A stretch of 34,354 nt of DNA. It comes from Halobacteriovoraceae bacterium. Its GTDB lineage: Bacteria; Bdellovibrionota; Bacteriovoracia; Bacteriovoracales; Bacteriovoracaceae. The stretch lies in the NCBI GenBank assembly GCA_002715375.1, contig PAZA01000061.1:1-34354 (forward strand), in the 5' to 3' direction. Below, one piece after another: positions 15,565 to 20,990 of the stretch (position 1 is its first letter; every line of letters begins with the position of its first letter). The notes beneath the pieces are model-generated. The model did no database searches. It was not told where the DNA came from and saw nothing but the letters and a program-made list of their open reading frames with translations. A program made the position numbers and the translations under genes.

Positions 15565-16557
15565 ATGCACCCTCAAGTTTTTACTTTTATCTTTGGTCTT
15601 ATTTTAGGTCTCTTTCTTTGTTTTCTTTTTTTCCAAAGACTCTTAAAAGAGAAAAATATCCAAATCTCTGAATTAAAAGAAAAAAATATGCCTATTTTAA
15701 AAGAGACTATCCAAAAAGGCATCAGCAACTCGACTCGAGAAAACTTAGAAAAAATTATGGTCACCCTTAATAGTGAATCGGTTAAAAGGCATGGTGAAGT
15801 CTACCATCTCCTTCAAGAAACTTTCAAAACCACTGAAAACCTATTTAACCAAACTCAGAAGTGGCAAGGCCTTTTTTACAATAATCATCAAAGAGGTCTT
15901 TTTGGTGAAGAAGTTATATTAAAAATGATTACAGGTATCGGCTTTATTGAAGGAATTCACTTTGAAAGGCAGTTTTCACTTAAAAGCGGAAAAAGGCCTG
16001 ATTTTATATTTTATTTGCCAAAAAATAAAAAGCTTATTGTTGATTGCAAATTCCCTTTTAGTAACTATCAAAAGATATGGGAAGAGAAAGAAAATAAAAA
16101 TTCTATGACATATAAGCAATTTATTAGAGTTATAAGAAATCATATGAGAGAGATGAGAAAAAAAGCCTATGACTCTGAGTTAGAAAGTCTGGACTTTATT
16201 TGTCTGCTTCTACCTAGTGACAGTATTTTTAGCTTTATCCAACAAGAAGGTACAGAGCTTTTTCAAGAAGCTCTTTCACACAGAATTCTTTTCTGCAGCC
16301 CAGTCCTCCTTTTTCCACTTCTAAGTGTTGTAAAAAACACAATAACATCTGTTCAAATGTCTGAAGGTCATGATGAATCTTTAAAACTTTTCCTGATGTT
16401 TAAAGAAGAATGGAAAGGGTTCATTAAAGATTGGGACCTTTTAGAAAAGTCATTCGAAAAAAGCGAGTCTTACCTTAGAAGGATAAAAAAGAAAAGAATC
16501 CAAGAGTTCGATAGTATTCTTGGAAAAAAAGAACGTTTATTTGATCTCTCCTCTTGA
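15565..16557 (+). CDS. rmuC: RmuC family DNA recombination protein
   Basis: RmuC limits rearrangements at short repeats and has a nuclease-like core. This 330-residue copy has an N-terminal membrane anchor (about residues 4-24), a short coiled region (25-105), and the family core: RGLFGEEVILKMI (about 110-122), then RPDFIFYLP and LIVDCKFPFSNY (about 148-172), which hold the acidic and Lys residues of a PD-(D/E)xK-like site. It is much shorter than E. coli RmuC because the coiled coil is reduced. ATG 15565 follows AAGGAAG. It is divergent from the nucleotidase and upstream of the MotB-like gene on the same strand, separated by 140 bases with two hairpins, so a shared transcript is possible but unproven. 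Confidence 0.88.
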   Translation: MHPQVFTFIFGLILGLFLCFLFFQRLLKEKNIQISELKEKNMPILKETIQKGISNSTRENLEKIMVTLNSESVKRHGEVYHLLQETFKTTENLFNQTQKWQGLFYNNHQRGLFGEEVILKMITGIGFIEGIHFERQFSLKSGKRPDFIFYLPKNKKLIVDCKFPFSNYQKIWEEKENKNSMTYKQFIRVIRNHMREMRKKAYDSELESLDFICLLLPSDSIFSFIQQEGTELFQEALSHRILFCSPVLLFPLLSVVKNTITSVQMSEGHDESLKLFLMFKEEWKGFIKDWDLLEKSFEKSESYLRRIKKKRIQEFDSILGKKERLFDLSS

Positions 16558-16697: not shown

Positions 16698-19283
16698 ATG
16701 ACGTCTAATCCTTTTAAGGGAAAACAAGTGGCTGTAGAAAGAAAAAAACGGATCAAAGTAAAAGACGATGATAAGGGTTCAATTTGGACCTCATATAGCG
16801 ACCTTTTTACTGCTGTAGCAATTATATTCCTTGTCATGTTCGTTTTTGCACTTCTAAGAACAAGTGTCATGAGCTTAAAAGCAATAAAGGAAACAAAAGA
16901 ACAAAAAGAATATTATGAAGGTAAAGTTTCTGAAAAAACTCAGAAAGAGAATGAGGAAAGAAAAAAGAGATTAAAACTTGCTGTTAATGAAATGAAAGAT
17001 TTTGATGATGTTATTTCAAAGAAAATGAAAGAGCTAAACAAATTCAGTAAGAAAATGGCAAGTCATAAAGTTGATATTGAAAAGTTACTTAAAGATCAGA
17101 CTATAAAAGATGAATCTCTAAAATTTATGAATGCTAAAGTAACCAAAAAAAATGAAGAAATAAAAAAGCTTAATAAAAACTTGGAAAACCTTGATAAAAT
17201 TCTCGATAAAAAAACTGTCGATCTTAATAGAAAGATTCGGAATATTAAATATATAGACCAAGAAAATAAAAATTTAAAAAGAGATGTAAAAGATAAACAA
17301 AAAAGAATTGCTGATATAAAAAAGACTATTGATAAAATAAAAAATGAAAATACAAAAGAGGTTTCTAAATTAAAGCAACAGATAAATAAAGAGAAAAAGA
17401 GCCTTTTAAGCTATCAGAAGTCAGTAAAATTTCTTAAAATTAAAAACCAGGAAAAGTCTTCAAAAATAATAGACCTTAAAAAATCCATTAGCTTGTTTGA
17501 AAAAGAAGTTCAGAAAAAGAAAAAGGAAATTGATTCTATAAAAGTTAATATGGATTTGGCCAAAGCGTTGTCTAAAAAATCACAAAGCAATATGGAAAGA
17601 ACTCAAGATAGCCTTGCTAAAAGCCAAAAGAGAGAAAAATCCTTAAAATCAAAAATTAAATTACTAACGAGTAATCTCAAAAAAATAACTACAAACCTCA
17701 GCTCACTCAAAAAAGACCTCAACTCACAAAAAAGTAAAACAGTTAAGGTTCAAGGTAGATTTTTGGCATCTACAAAATCTAATTCCGAACTCAAAGGAAA
17801 AATTAAAGATTTCCAAAATAAAATGAGGAATCTTAATGATCAAATGCTACAAGGCCAAAAATCATTTAATCAAAAGCTTGCTTCAAAAAATAGTGATCTT
17901 AAAAACGCACAATCAAAAATAACTAGCCTCAATTCAATTATTAAGGGGCTAGAAGGCAAAGTTTCTTCTTCTAAAAGCGCTCAGTCTGATTTGCAATCAA
18001 GTCTTGCCGCGGCCATGGGTCAACTTTCCAACTCGAAAGGGGAAAATGGCAAGTTAAGAGGTACTATTAATAGCATGAAAGGGGCCATAGAGGGTTTCAA
18101 AAATCAAATATCTGGACTTAATAAAAGCAATGGAATGAAACAAAAAAATATTGCTGCCCTAAGTTCAAGCATAAAAAAATGTGAAGTTGATAGTGATAAA
18201 AAGGATCAATTGATCGTAAATAAAAACCGTCAAATTCAATTCCAAAATGATAACAATACAAAGCTTAGTGACAACAACAACAATCTTAAAAATAACAATA
18301 AAAAGCTAATTGACGATAATACAAAACTTATTAATGAAAACAAAGATCTTGCTAAAAATAATAAATCTAATTTAAAAGAAATAGATAAAATAAAAAATGA
18401 AAATGAAAAACTTGTCCTTAACAATAATAAACTGAAAAACAAAATCGCTTCACTTGAAGACGTTGGTGATGATTTCAAAAGAGAAATAGCGAATTTAAAA
18501 ACTGAATCTAACAATAAAGATAATGAAAATAAAAAGAAAGATAAGGATATTGATTTATTAAAGACTGCTAACAAAGCGAGCAATGACAAGGTTGAAGTCC
18601 TTAAAAAGAAAAACAACGTTCTTTTGGCTAAAATTGATAATTTAAGGAAAGATTTTAATAAACTCGCAAGTAACCCATTTAAAGCACAAGATGATTTTAG
18701 AAAAGATTTAGGAAATAATATTGCCAAGAAAATGGCTAAATATAACGTCCAAACAGAAATGGATAAGAGGACGGGTAATATCACGCTTAGGCTGGATGGG
18801 ACTTTTCTTTTCAAAAGAAACCAATCAGTCTTAACTAATGTTGCTAAATCCACTTTAAGAAAGATAATACCTATTTACACATCAGAAATTTTTAAATCTA
18901 AGAAAATTAGAAACAACATAGATCAAGTTAATATTATTGGTCACGCAAGTCCTCGCTATAAAAGAAAATTTGCTGACCCCCAAGGTAAAAATACAGTGGC
19001 CTATAATTACAATTTAGACCTAAGTACTGCCAGGGCCAAAGAAATTGTAAAGTTCATTTTCAGTAAACGATTTGGTGGCTTTAAATATAAAAATGTCTTA
19101 AGAGAAAAGATATCGGTCATGGGGAAAAGCTTTTCAGAACCAATAAAACTAAAGCCTGGCTCTAAGAAAGACCCAACTTGTGGGGTCTATAACTGTAAGC
19201 TTTCTAGAAGAGTTGAAATTAAATTTACAATGAAAGATAACCCAAGATTTTATAAAAAATTAAATTTCCTCCACAAGGATTAA
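16698..19283 (+). CDS. MotB-like protein with giant coiled coil
   Basis: This 861-residue protein looks like the stator/peptidoglycan-anchor half of an ion-driven motor. A basic cytoplasmic N-terminus (1-29) leads into one TM helix, WTSYSDLFTAVAIIF. Its Asp35 aligns with the proton-carrying Asp32 of E. coli MotB (WKIAYADFMTA). Residues about 60-655 are Lys/Asn-rich coiled coil, including ten near-perfect heptads (517-586). The C-terminal domain (about 690-855) is OmpA/MotB-like: IIGHAS (about 747), YNLDLSTARAKEIV and RRVEIKF. The usual Asp after GHT is absent (GHASPRY), and CGVYNC could form a disulfide. Its stop abuts the MotA/ExbB-like gene. The start has no good ribosome-binding site. The exact function is unknown. 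Confidence 0.82.
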   Translation: MTSNPFKGKQVAVERKKRIKVKDDDKGSIWTSYSDLFTAVAIIFLVMFVFALLRTSVMSLKAIKETKEQKEYYEGKVSEKTQKENEERKKRLKLAVNEMKDFDDVISKKMKELNKFSKKMASHKVDIEKLLKDQTIKDESLKFMNAKVTKKNEEIKKLNKNLENLDKILDKKTVDLNRKIRNIKYIDQENKNLKRDVKDKQKRIADIKKTIDKIKNENTKEVSKLKQQINKEKKSLLSYQKSVKFLKIKNQEKSSKIIDLKKSISLFEKEVQKKKKEIDSIKVNMDLAKALSKKSQSNMERTQDSLAKSQKREKSLKSKIKLLTSNLKKITTNLSSLKKDLNSQKSKTVKVQGRFLASTKSNSELKGKIKDFQNKMRNLNDQMLQGQKSFNQKLASKNSDLKNAQSKITSLNSIIKGLEGKVSSSKSAQSDLQSSLAAAMGQLSNSKGENGKLRGTINSMKGAIEGFKNQISGLNKSNGMKQKNIAALSSSIKKCEVDSDKKDQLIVNKNRQIQFQNDNNTKLSDNNNNLKNNNKKLIDDNTKLINENKDLAKNNKSNLKEIDKIKNENEKLVLNNNKLKNKIASLEDVGDDFKREIANLKTESNNKDNENKKKDKDIDLLKTANKASNDKVEVLKKKNNVLLAKIDNLRKDFNKLASNPFKAQDDFRKDLGNNIAKKMAKYNVQTEMDKRTGNITLRLDGTFLFKRNQSVLTNVAKSTLRKIIPIYTSEIFKSKKIRNNIDQVNIIGHASPRYKRKFADPQGKNTVAYNYNLDLSTARAKEIVKFIFSKRFGGFKYKNVLREKISVMGKSFSEPIKLKPGSKKDPTCGVYNCKLSRRVEIKFTMKDNPRFYKKLNFLHKD
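18246..18455 (+). repeat. Ten 7-residue (21-base) heptad units
   Basis: Within the MotB-like gene, residues 517-586 read as consecutive heptads such as NDNNTKL, SDNNNNL, KNNNKKL, IDDNTKL and INENKDL. Leu (once Ile, once Asn) occupies every seventh position, and Asn/Lys fill the rest. The regular spacing points to a zipper-type coiled coil and perhaps to recent repeat expansion. Confidence 0.75.
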
Positions 19284-20228
19284 ATGATGACTGATTTGTT
19301 AGGCATTGCCCTTAATTTTTTTTCCAGTTACCTCATTGAGGTAATGGGAGTACTCCTTGTTCTAGGTCTCATTTTTAGGGCCGCCTCTTATAAGCTAAGT
19401 AAAAGAGAGGATGCCTATTTCTCTTCTTTTATTAGTGAAGTTGAAAAAGCTCTTTCAGCTTCAACCAACGATAAGGAGGAAGTAGAGGATGTCGACCACT
19501 TTCTTGATACTGTCTTAAAACAAGTCTCTGACAAGCTCCCTACAAGGAGTGTTCGATACGGAAATTTTAGCCGAAAAAAAGAAGAAAAGGATAAAGAAAA
19601 GATAGAAAAGTCAGCAGCAAAATCTATAGCTCGGCATAAAAAAACCGTCTCCTTAAGAGACTTTGTCCATGGTGAAAAAAGTCTTTTTCATTCAATAAAA
19701 GGTGAAGCAAGTATTTTTAAGTCTAAATACCCACCAAACTTTGATGATTTAACAGATAGAATTCTTGAAAAAGACCCTAACTGGAATAAACTTCTCAATT
19801 TTTTTCCGGTAGCACCTATTTCTAGACTTAATGATATCCTTCCAGGGCTTTTTGTTGTCTTTGGAATTTTCGGGACATTTATCGGGATTAGTATGGCCCT
19901 TCCAAAAATCGCGGCCATAGATTTTTCAAATATTGAAGCTTCTGGAGCTATCCTTCAGGAATTTGTTCTAAATATTGCCTTTGCAATGAAAACATCTATA
20001 GCCGGTATCCTCTTTTCACTTATTACGACGGTTCTCAATACAATGGCACCTGTTGGTGGTTTAAGAGAAAAAACCTTCAAAAAGTTATCGACAAGCTTTG
20101 AAGAAATTTGGAATGCTATCCACGGGTCTAAGTCCATTGAAGCGTCCTTGCAGGAATCTTTACCTGGACTTCTAAATGAAGTTAAAAGAATAAATAGTTA
20201 TATAGAAGAACAAAATAAAGCATCTTGA
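19284..20228 (+). CDS. MotA/TolQ/ExbB-like motor protein
   Basis: This 314-residue inner-membrane protein is the likely ion-channel partner of the MotB-like protein before it. It has three membrane segments: about 5-34, 186-206 (LPGLFVVFGIFGTFIGI) and 228-252 (NIAFAMKTSIAGILFSLITT). A charged cytoplasmic domain (35-180) sits between the first two, the ExbB/TolQ plan rather than the four-TM MotA plan. Thr198 in GTFIG and Thr237-Ser238 match the polar ion-path residues of the family. A short helical tail follows. The ATG directly follows the upstream TAA (a second ATG at 19287 has better spacing from AAGGAT), so translation is coupled. The AF-TSIAG pattern also occurs in ZorA, but the long ZorA tail is missing. 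Confidence 0.85.
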   Translation: MMTDLLGIALNFFSSYLIEVMGVLLVLGLIFRAASYKLSKREDAYFSSFISEVEKALSASTNDKEEVEDVDHFLDTVLKQVSDKLPTRSVRYGNFSRKKEEKDKEKIEKSAAKSIARHKKTVSLRDFVHGEKSLFHSIKGEASIFKSKYPPNFDDLTDRILEKDPNWNKLLNFFPVAPISRLNDILPGLFVVFGIFGTFIGISMALPKIAAIDFSNIEASGAILQEFVLNIAFAMKTSIAGILFSLITTVLNTMAPVGGLREKTFKKLSTSFEEIWNAIHGSKSIEASLQESLPGLLNEVKRINSYIEEQNKAS

Positions 20229-20268: not shown

Positions 20269-20763
20269 ATGAGCTTTCTTGCTAACCTAGTCAAAGGATG
20301 CCCCCTCTTTTTAGAGATCTATGATGAAGAGGTGGAAGAAGTTATTCAAGCTTGCGAAGTCGCTACTTTTAAAAGAGGCGAGCATATAATTCATCAGGGA
20401 GAGGAAAGCTCTGATATAGCCATCATTTTAGATGGTTGCGCTGATGTTATTATTAAAGACCAATTTGGAAAAATGAAAGTTATTACCCAACTTGTAAAAG
20501 GCGATCTCTTTGGAGAGCTTGTTTTAATAAATGAGACTAAAAGAACAGCTGATATCGTTGCCAAGGAGGAAACAAATATCCTTATCATAAGTTATGAAAA
20601 CTTTTACTCATTCTACAAAGATAACCCAAAAGTTTTTGCTCTTATGGTACTGAATGTAACGAGGATGGTAACTCAAAGGCTTAAATCGGCCAATGGAATC
20701 ATCAATAATTTATCTCATGAACTCATGGAGTTAAAAAGTGAACTCCATAAGAAAGCTTCTTAG
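20269..20763 (+). CDS. Stand-alone cyclic-nucleotide-binding protein
   Basis: This 164-residue soluble protein is a single Crp-type cNMP-binding domain. The N-terminal helices (PLFLEIYDEEVEEVI) lead into the beta roll, with the phosphate-binding cassette FGELVLINETKRTA (Phe81-Gly82-Glu83, Arg92). Glu and Arg contact the ribose and phosphate in true cAMP/cGMP binders, so ligand binding is plausible. A C-terminal helix (125-164) has no helix-turn-helix or enzyme domain, so it would act by protein contact. It starts 40 bases after the ExbB-like gene with AGGGG upstream, in the same direction, suggesting it belongs to the motor operon and may regulate it. The ligand is not predictable. Confidence 0.85.
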   Translation: MSFLANLVKGCPLFLEIYDEEVEEVIQACEVATFKRGEHIIHQGEESSDIAIILDGCADVIIKDQFGKMKVITQLVKGDLFGELVLINETKRTADIVAKEETNILIISYENFYSFYKDNPKVFALMVLNVTRMVTQRLKSANGIINNLSHELMELKSELHKKAS

Positions 20764-20774
20764 ATAATAAAAAG

Positions 20775-20990
20775 CTAGAACTTGAGGAGGTCTGGGGTTG
20801 GGCCTTCACATTTTTCTTTTTTTTCATCACTGCATTGATCTTTTTTTTCACAAAACATGCAATCGTCACCAAGGACCTTGTTAAGACCACCACAGCTTCC
20901 TTTTAGCTTTTTGTTGCTAAAGATAACTCCAACTGCCATTCCTACGATGGTCAGTAACATCACTCCCAATGTAATTAAGAAAAGTTTCAT
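20775..20990 (-). CDS. nqrM: Na+-NQR maturation protein NqrM
   Basis: NqrM (DUF539) is needed for Na+-NQR assembly, probably delivering iron to the NqrD/NqrE cysteine site. The 71-residue protein has one N-terminal TM helix, the family signature KGSCGGLNKVLGDDC, and further cysteines (CMFCEKKDQC), all expected metal ligands. I chose the ATG at 20988-20990 because the family begins near this hydrophobic stretch and GAGG lies 12 bases upstream. An in-frame ATG six codons earlier (21008) has no ribosome-binding site. It follows apbE on the minus strand, the usual place after nqr genes, and converges with the cNMP-binding gene, leaving an 11-base gap. Confidence 0.88.
   Translation of the reverse strand: MKLFLITLGVMLLTIVGMAVGVIFSNKKLKGSCGGLNKVLGDDCMFCEKKDQCSDEKKEKCEGPTPDLLKF

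Follow-up and report, generated by a model that had tools for sequence, protein, structure and literature searches.

A predicted ZorAB-related ion motor with an exceptionally long periplasmic coil and a putative cyclic-nucleotide sensor in Bdellovibrionota

The stretch of DNA analyzed here (the window) comprises the 34,354 nucleotides of contig PAZA01000061.1 from a Halobacteriovoraceae bacterium and lies within a metagenome-assembled genome of 2.64 Mb that is 72% complete. On its forward strand, three consecutive genes, here called B, A, and C, appear to encode the two subunits of an envelope ion motor and a small cyclic-nucleotide-binding protein. An earlier account made from the sequence alone (the sequence-only reading) had described a two-gene motor in which a MotB-like protein, with a transmembrane Asp35 and a C-terminal OmpA-type domain, is followed by its partner. 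Both open reading frames (ORFs) are where it had placed them, the pair itself holds, and the domain proves to be specifically ZorB-like. What it overlooked is the third gene of the operon, C, and a phylum-wide sister operon that encodes an FHA protein. The features of the locus are as follows, with residues of B numbered on the 861-residue reading from ATG 16698.

16698 to 19283, + strand: gene B, a MotB/ZorB-like subunit of 861 residues from ATG 16698 or, more likely, 851 residues from GTG 16728, with AAGGGA at 16716-16721.
16788 to 16856, + strand: single transmembrane helix of B (approximately residues 31-53), with the motif W-x-S-Y-S-D present in both clades and the Asp35 codon at 16800-16802.
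16878 to 18662, + strand: predicted periplasmic coiled coil of B (residues 61-655), recognized by periodicity, heptad score, and lack of proline and modeled as mostly helical by AlphaFold2 (AF2).
18678 to 19244, + strand: predicted ZorB/OmpA-like peptidoglycan-binding domain of B (residues 661-849; PADLOC, Foldseek).
19008 to 19034, + strand: predicted peptidoglycan-contact motif of B, Y771-N772-x-x-L775-x-x-x-R779, with N, L, and R invariant.
19179 to 19196, + strand: Cys828 and Cys833 of B, an invariant pair found in both clades but in none of the five ZorB proteins compared.
19284 to 20228, + strand: gene A, a ZorA-like motor subunit of 314 residues with three transmembrane helices and no cytoplasmic tail (profiles, HH comparison, AF2, Foldseek).
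19809 to 20045, + strand: second and third transmembrane helices of A (AF2 helices 176-210 and 217-254), which contain Thr198 (19875-19877) and Ser238 (19995-19997) of the ion path.
20217 to 20225, + strand: C-terminal Lys-Ala-Ser of A, a tail shared with C, where its counterpart lies at 20749-20760.
20269 to 20763, + strand: gene C, a stand-alone cyclic-nucleotide-binding protein of 164 residues with no helix-turn-helix or enzyme domain (Pfam cNMP_binding, 1.7e-18).
20509 to 20553, + strand: phosphate-binding cassette of C, FGE...KRTA, with Gly82, Glu83, and Arg92 invariant in homologues.
20786 to 20807, + strand: weak terminator-like hairpin after C, a possible operon end; such sites are no more frequent here than in shuffled sequences.

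Sequence, profile, and structure comparison give good support for A and B as the paired subunits of an ion motor of the MotAB/ZorAB superfamily. The genes adjoin, as had been noted, with no spacer between the stop of B at 19283 and the start of A at 19284, and AAGGA precedes A. The AF2 model of A (predicted local distance difference test score [pLDDT], 86) has three transmembrane helices, and 67 A homologues from both clades described below all keep Thr198 and Ser238, the residues that correspond to the expected Ser/Thr ring. The N-terminal segment of B is a transmembrane helix, as had been supposed, and Asp35 within it is invariant across 34 B homologues. In the same set N772, L775, and R779 do not vary, and their spacing is what we take to be that of the peptidoglycan-contact residues altered in ZorB mutants. 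Cys828 and Cys833 probably form a disulfide.

Both subunits find their nearest relatives in ZorAB. The C-terminal domain of B matches ZorB with E values of 6.6e-31 (PADLOC) and 2e-18 (HH), and the top five Foldseek matches in the PDB are all ZorB, including 8vvn, 8vvi, and 8qyd (E values of 2e-8 to 6e-6, prob 1.00). A matches the ZorA models at 4.4e-8 (PADLOC) and 3e-8 (NCBIfam) and the PDB type II ZorA of S. kujiense (8VVI; PMC11890865) at 2.2e-6. Foldseek ranks ZorA first for A, followed by ExbB and then TolQ, with modest template-modeling scores (TM-scores). Against the Pfam MotA_ExbB model A stays below threshold (E value of 0.89; 9.7 bits against a cut-off of 22.9), and this failure together with the Foldseek order rules out a conventional MotA or TolQ/ExbB, so the ExbB/TolQ-type label that the sequence-only reading gave to the partner gene is replaced by ZorA-like. 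The relationship to ZorAB is evident yet remote, with identity to the solved structures of about 20% for B and 14% for A. The comparison thus shows no close homology of the two proteins to a described motor, the earlier description of the pair as uncharacterised is sustained, and we found no prior description of this 5:2-type motor in the searchable literature, a search outside which most subscription papers fall.

Between its transmembrane helix and its wall-binding domain, B carries the coiled coil of about 595 residues that had been predicted. Hydrophobicity across residues 61-655 has a period of 3.50 with a power of 5.14 (mean for shuffles, 1.53; standard deviation, 0.22), the heptad score reaches z = 15 against composition shuffles with three register shifts, and B has no proline from residue 6 to residue 659, a run of 654 residues. 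Taken together, these three properties rule out chance or misreading. At 0.1485 nm per residue, a straight coil would measure about 88 nm, which bears out the argument that it is too long to stand upright in the periplasm. The AF2 monomer of B places helices at residues 79-109, 120-342, 350-495, and 560-681, separated by low-confidence breaks at approximately 110-119, 343-349, and 496-560; these breaks could be hinges, and the coil could fold back on itself. Among the B proteins measured, the coil is proline-poor and ranges from 312 to 1515 residues in clade 1 and from 252 to 411 in clade 2, and even the shortest, at 252 residues or approximately 37 nm, exceeds a typical periplasm. The largest case is a B protein of 1758 residues (L039, 10251-15524), whose coil-like region of approximately 1515 residues contains 151 glycines and no proline. 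In two loci (L077, 7907-9745, and L081), B is split into two ORFs by a frameshift, a sequencing error, or pseudogene formation. We also considered whether coil length changes by whole heptads; the indels between the window and its sister are 7, 7, 7, and 17, but multiples of 7 account for only 8 of 22 coil gaps overall, and as a general rule the idea is weak.

The stop of B at 19283 agrees with the sequence-only reading, and its start does not: translation probably begins at GTG 16728 rather than at ATG 16698. In the sister species (L052, 5440-5620, compared with window positions 16698-16730), the matching upstream ATG is out of frame and the GTG with its AAGGGA/GAGGGA ribosome site is retained, which makes the GTG the likelier start.

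C belongs to the CAP_ED group by its fold, recognized by the Pfam match, and by the cassette Glu and Arg. Gly82, Glu83, and Arg92 are kept in 37 of 37 homologues, and because this cassette is invariant, C is likely to bind a cyclic nucleotide, either cyclic AMP (cAMP) or cyclic GMP (cGMP). Class III nucleotidyl cyclases were present in all 12 genomes examined. Their number was 7 in the genome of the window, despite its 72% completeness, 12 in a second genome (G001), and 1 to 4 in each of the other ten. No RNA family matched anywhere in the window.

The homology and neighborhood comparison across Bdellovibrionota that had been suggested as a check on the first reading returned two related operons, B-A-C in clade 1 and B-A-FHA in clade 2, with ZorAB the nearest known family. 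The A profile search found 49 loci in named genomes, mostly of Bacteriovoracia, and the closest relative is Bacteriovoracaceae bacterium UBA7317, with 96% identity in A. Clade 1 scores above 270 bits against the A profile, and clade 2 is set apart at 100-145 bits. The order B then A, with the extension on the B side, had been read correctly: B lies directly upstream of A in 42 of 42 nonredundant clade-1 loci. In 37 of 40 loci, the gene directly downstream of A in the same orientation is C; in one more, C is inverted. The intergenic gaps in B-A-C loci are mostly -4 to +20 bp. Because of this constancy of B upstream and C downstream, we regard the gene arrangement as that of one operon. The inverted case, L072 (the same locus as L037), in which the cyclic-nucleotide-binding gene adjoins A on the opposite strand, is the only one seen.

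In clade 2, which is spread over Bdellovibrionota, B and A are followed by a long protein with an FHA domain, a coiled coil, and a transmembrane helix. This third protein is 700-1390 residues long, and a protein of more than 650 residues lies directly downstream of A in 24 of 28 loci. The three that we scanned have an N-terminal FHA domain by Pfam, and the proteins continue with a long cytoplasmic coil and, toward the C terminus, a single transmembrane helix and a periplasmic domain that is conserved. That C-terminal domain occurs in 4 of 4 clade-2 genomes and in 0 of 15 genomes that have only clade 1, a distribution that points to one motor with two alternative input modules, the cyclic-nucleotide-binding protein C or the FHA protein. 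The periplasmic domain (e.g., L101, 8233-10617; alignment A5) is apparently uncharacterized.

Clade 1 and/or clade 2 operons were found in 152 of 294 genomes. In a genome assembled as a single contig of 3,782,950 bp (G129), the clade-2 operon sits at about 1.108-1.113 Mb. For 22 genomes, the principal division in RpoB, into groups of 6 and 16, reappears in the A tree; the exceptions are genomes with a second copy and one genome (G013, locus L039) whose sole copy comes from the other subclade. Flanking genes are mostly housekeeping genes and vary between loci, with some common to four Bdellovibrio-group genomes. These patterns are consistent with a chromosomal operon that is mostly vertically inherited and commonly lost. 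Two clade-1 operons from different subclades coexist in a single genome in four cases (L057/L080, L061/L085, L060/L077, and L062/L074), for which the alternatives are an old duplication, or transfer, followed by loss. The RmuC gene upstream of B in the window (15565-16557) was rejected as a member of the system: no locus other than the window and its sister has it at that position, which is taken in nine relatives by an exonuclease-like gene (cluster 5) and in others by neither of the two.

A and C also share an ending. A K-x-A-A/S tail recurs in A proteins of both clades and in C proteins, and 61 of 107 A and C proteins (57%) end in A-A or A-S, compared with 27 of 878 other ORFs (3%; Fisher p = 3e-46, kinship not corrected for); the background is overestimated, as the 878 ORFs still include some duplicate A and C genes. 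None of the B and FHA proteins, whose C termini are periplasmic, has the tail. By analogy with ClpXP substrates, it is possible that the tail is a cytosolic degron, or else a docking tail; a cytoplasmic C-terminal degron would account for its presence on A and C and its absence from the proteins that end in the periplasm.

Together, these observations suggest a three-gene envelope machine in which a peptidoglycan-anchored A5B2 ion motor is gated by a cyclic-nucleotide sensor (or, in clade 2, a phospho-peptide sensor). In this model, whose stoichiometry is inferred, ions crossing at the Asp, Thr, and Ser residues would rotate the A ring around the B dimer, and the C-terminal domain of B would grip peptidoglycan from the tip of a coiled-coil dimer of approximately 90 nm. 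Too long to stand upright in the periplasm, such a coil would have to run along the wall or double back, so that it would work as a lever or a loose tether and not as a rigid post. C would bind cAMP or cGMP and turn the motor on or off, probably through a putative contact with the cytoplasmic face of A, much as YcgR acts on MotA. In the sister clade, the FHA protein in place of C would couple the motor to protein phosphorylation. The likely role would be that of a core, regulated Bdellovibrionota envelope machine, not a defence system, with the wall as the object that it pulls, senses, or repositions.

We consider the whole of this proposal, in which the gating and the role are conjectural, about evenly balanced between right and wrong. 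Three points weigh against it: of the 73 good genomes of the class, only 44 have A, which is thus not universally essential; cyclic-nucleotide binding by C rests on motif conservation; and AF2 modeled B with low confidence (mean pLDDT, 66). The strongest form of the idea, that a second messenger directly gates a rotary 5:2 motor on a coil of approximately 90 nm and that in a sister lineage phosphorylation takes over the gating by way of a very large cytoplasmic coil tipped with an FHA domain, making the inputs interchangeable, we put forward only tentatively. A core envelope machine is the best fit to the distribution, and its biological role is itself a guess.

The main rival is a stator for motility or predation, in which the motor would drive gliding, prey attachment, or prey entry and the coil would reach laterally along the wall. 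The restriction of the operon to Bdellovibrionota, which include predators, agrees with this, control by a second messenger or FHA protein would suit the regulation of a life cycle, and FHA proteins accompany AglRQS motors (GltG; PMC3169522). However, no motility or predation genes recur beside the operon, many genomes of the class lack it, and the AglRQS/Glt motors form a separate family, encoded by a cluster of their own (Bd0828-0838; PMC3169522); we regard a stator as unlikely. Somewhat less probable still is a housekeeping machine of Tol type, linking peptidoglycan to constriction or repair of the outer membrane. It would account for a predicted peptidoglycan-binding end on an ion motor whose genes are chromosomal and mostly vertical in descent, but the operon has no TolA, TolB, or Pal partner, B is without a TolR/ExbD-type domain, conventional ExbBD/Tol-type and MotAB pairs are already in the genome, and the sensor gene would be left unexplained. 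A Zorya-like anti-phage system, triggered when phage injection perturbs the wall, is improbable even though no known family is closer to either subunit than ZorAB and cyclic-nucleotide-binding domains occur also in Pycsar effectors, as the tail of ZorA that phage defence requires (PMC11890865) is missing, no recurrent effector or defence-gene neighborhood accompanies the operon, the A tree stays close to that of RpoB, and synteny is conserved across Bdellovibrio species.

Among known motors, the flagellar stators MotAB and PomAB share the 5:2-type core and a peptidoglycan-anchored B subunit, but the AF2 model of A has three transmembrane helices instead of four, A fails the MotA_ExbB model, and separate MotAB pairs are present in the same genome. 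TolQR and ExbBD have a three-transmembrane A subunit and a weak structural match, but B (861 residues) combines an OmpA/ZorB-type domain with a long coil where they have a TolR/ExbD domain, and there is no TolA or TonB partner. The AglRQS-Glt gliding motor is likewise an ion motor with an FHA protein (GltG; PMC3169522) in delta-group bacteria, but GltG has a TonB domain, no Glt genes lie beside the operon, and A is ZorA-like.

ZorAB of Zorya types I and II (PDB 8VVN, 8VVI, and 8QYD) is the best match of both A and B by PADLOC, HH, and Foldseek and has in common with them the transmembrane Asp of B, the Thr/Ser ring and three transmembrane helices of A, and the peptidoglycan domain of B. The differences are considerable. 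The gene order is B-A here and A-B in Zorya; B has a periplasmic coil of 250-1500 residues and the invariant Cys pair; and the third gene encodes a cyclic-nucleotide-binding or FHA protein rather than ZorCD or ZorE. ZorA has cytoplasmic extensions (residues 236-696 in type I and 100-378 in type II; PMC11890865), whereas in A the long tail is missing, as only about 60 residues follow the third transmembrane helix. Against the NCBIfam ZorA/ZorB models, the scores miss the curated cut-offs (32.4 bits against 190 and 21.8 against 400). As the sequence-only reading had it, the operon in the window has no ZorC/D, ZorE, or other Zor effector next to it, and none recurs among 113 neighbors. For these, PADLOC gave no defence island and only scattered matches, mostly to single proteins; besides these, a DEDDh exonuclease was matched in 3 and subtilase in 2. 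The patchy, mobile, defence-island distribution expected of Zorya was not what we found: the pattern is unlike that of a mobile defence system because the A tree largely follows RpoB and the neighbors are mostly housekeeping genes, although presence is incomplete (44 of 73). The search also touched, at its margin, ZorA-ZorB loci (L096-L099), in which A precedes B, the B proteins are short, and the third genes are of other kinds. Membership in the Zorya system was rejected on the missing tail, the missing effectors, and the failed cut-offs; the defence motor that had been offered as one option is not supported. By these comparisons the operon represents a ZorAB-related motor subfamily whose core would work like that of ZorAB. 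ZorAB has so far been treated as a defence motor. A chromosomal and mostly vertically inherited relative in Bdellovibrionota suggests a broader family, with the Zorya motor as one of its branches and routine envelope tasks carried out by some of its members. The swap of cyclic-nucleotide and FHA modules on a shared core hints at rotary motors under regulation, to which different inputs can be fitted, and the long B coils raise the question of how so long an object is arranged in the periplasm.

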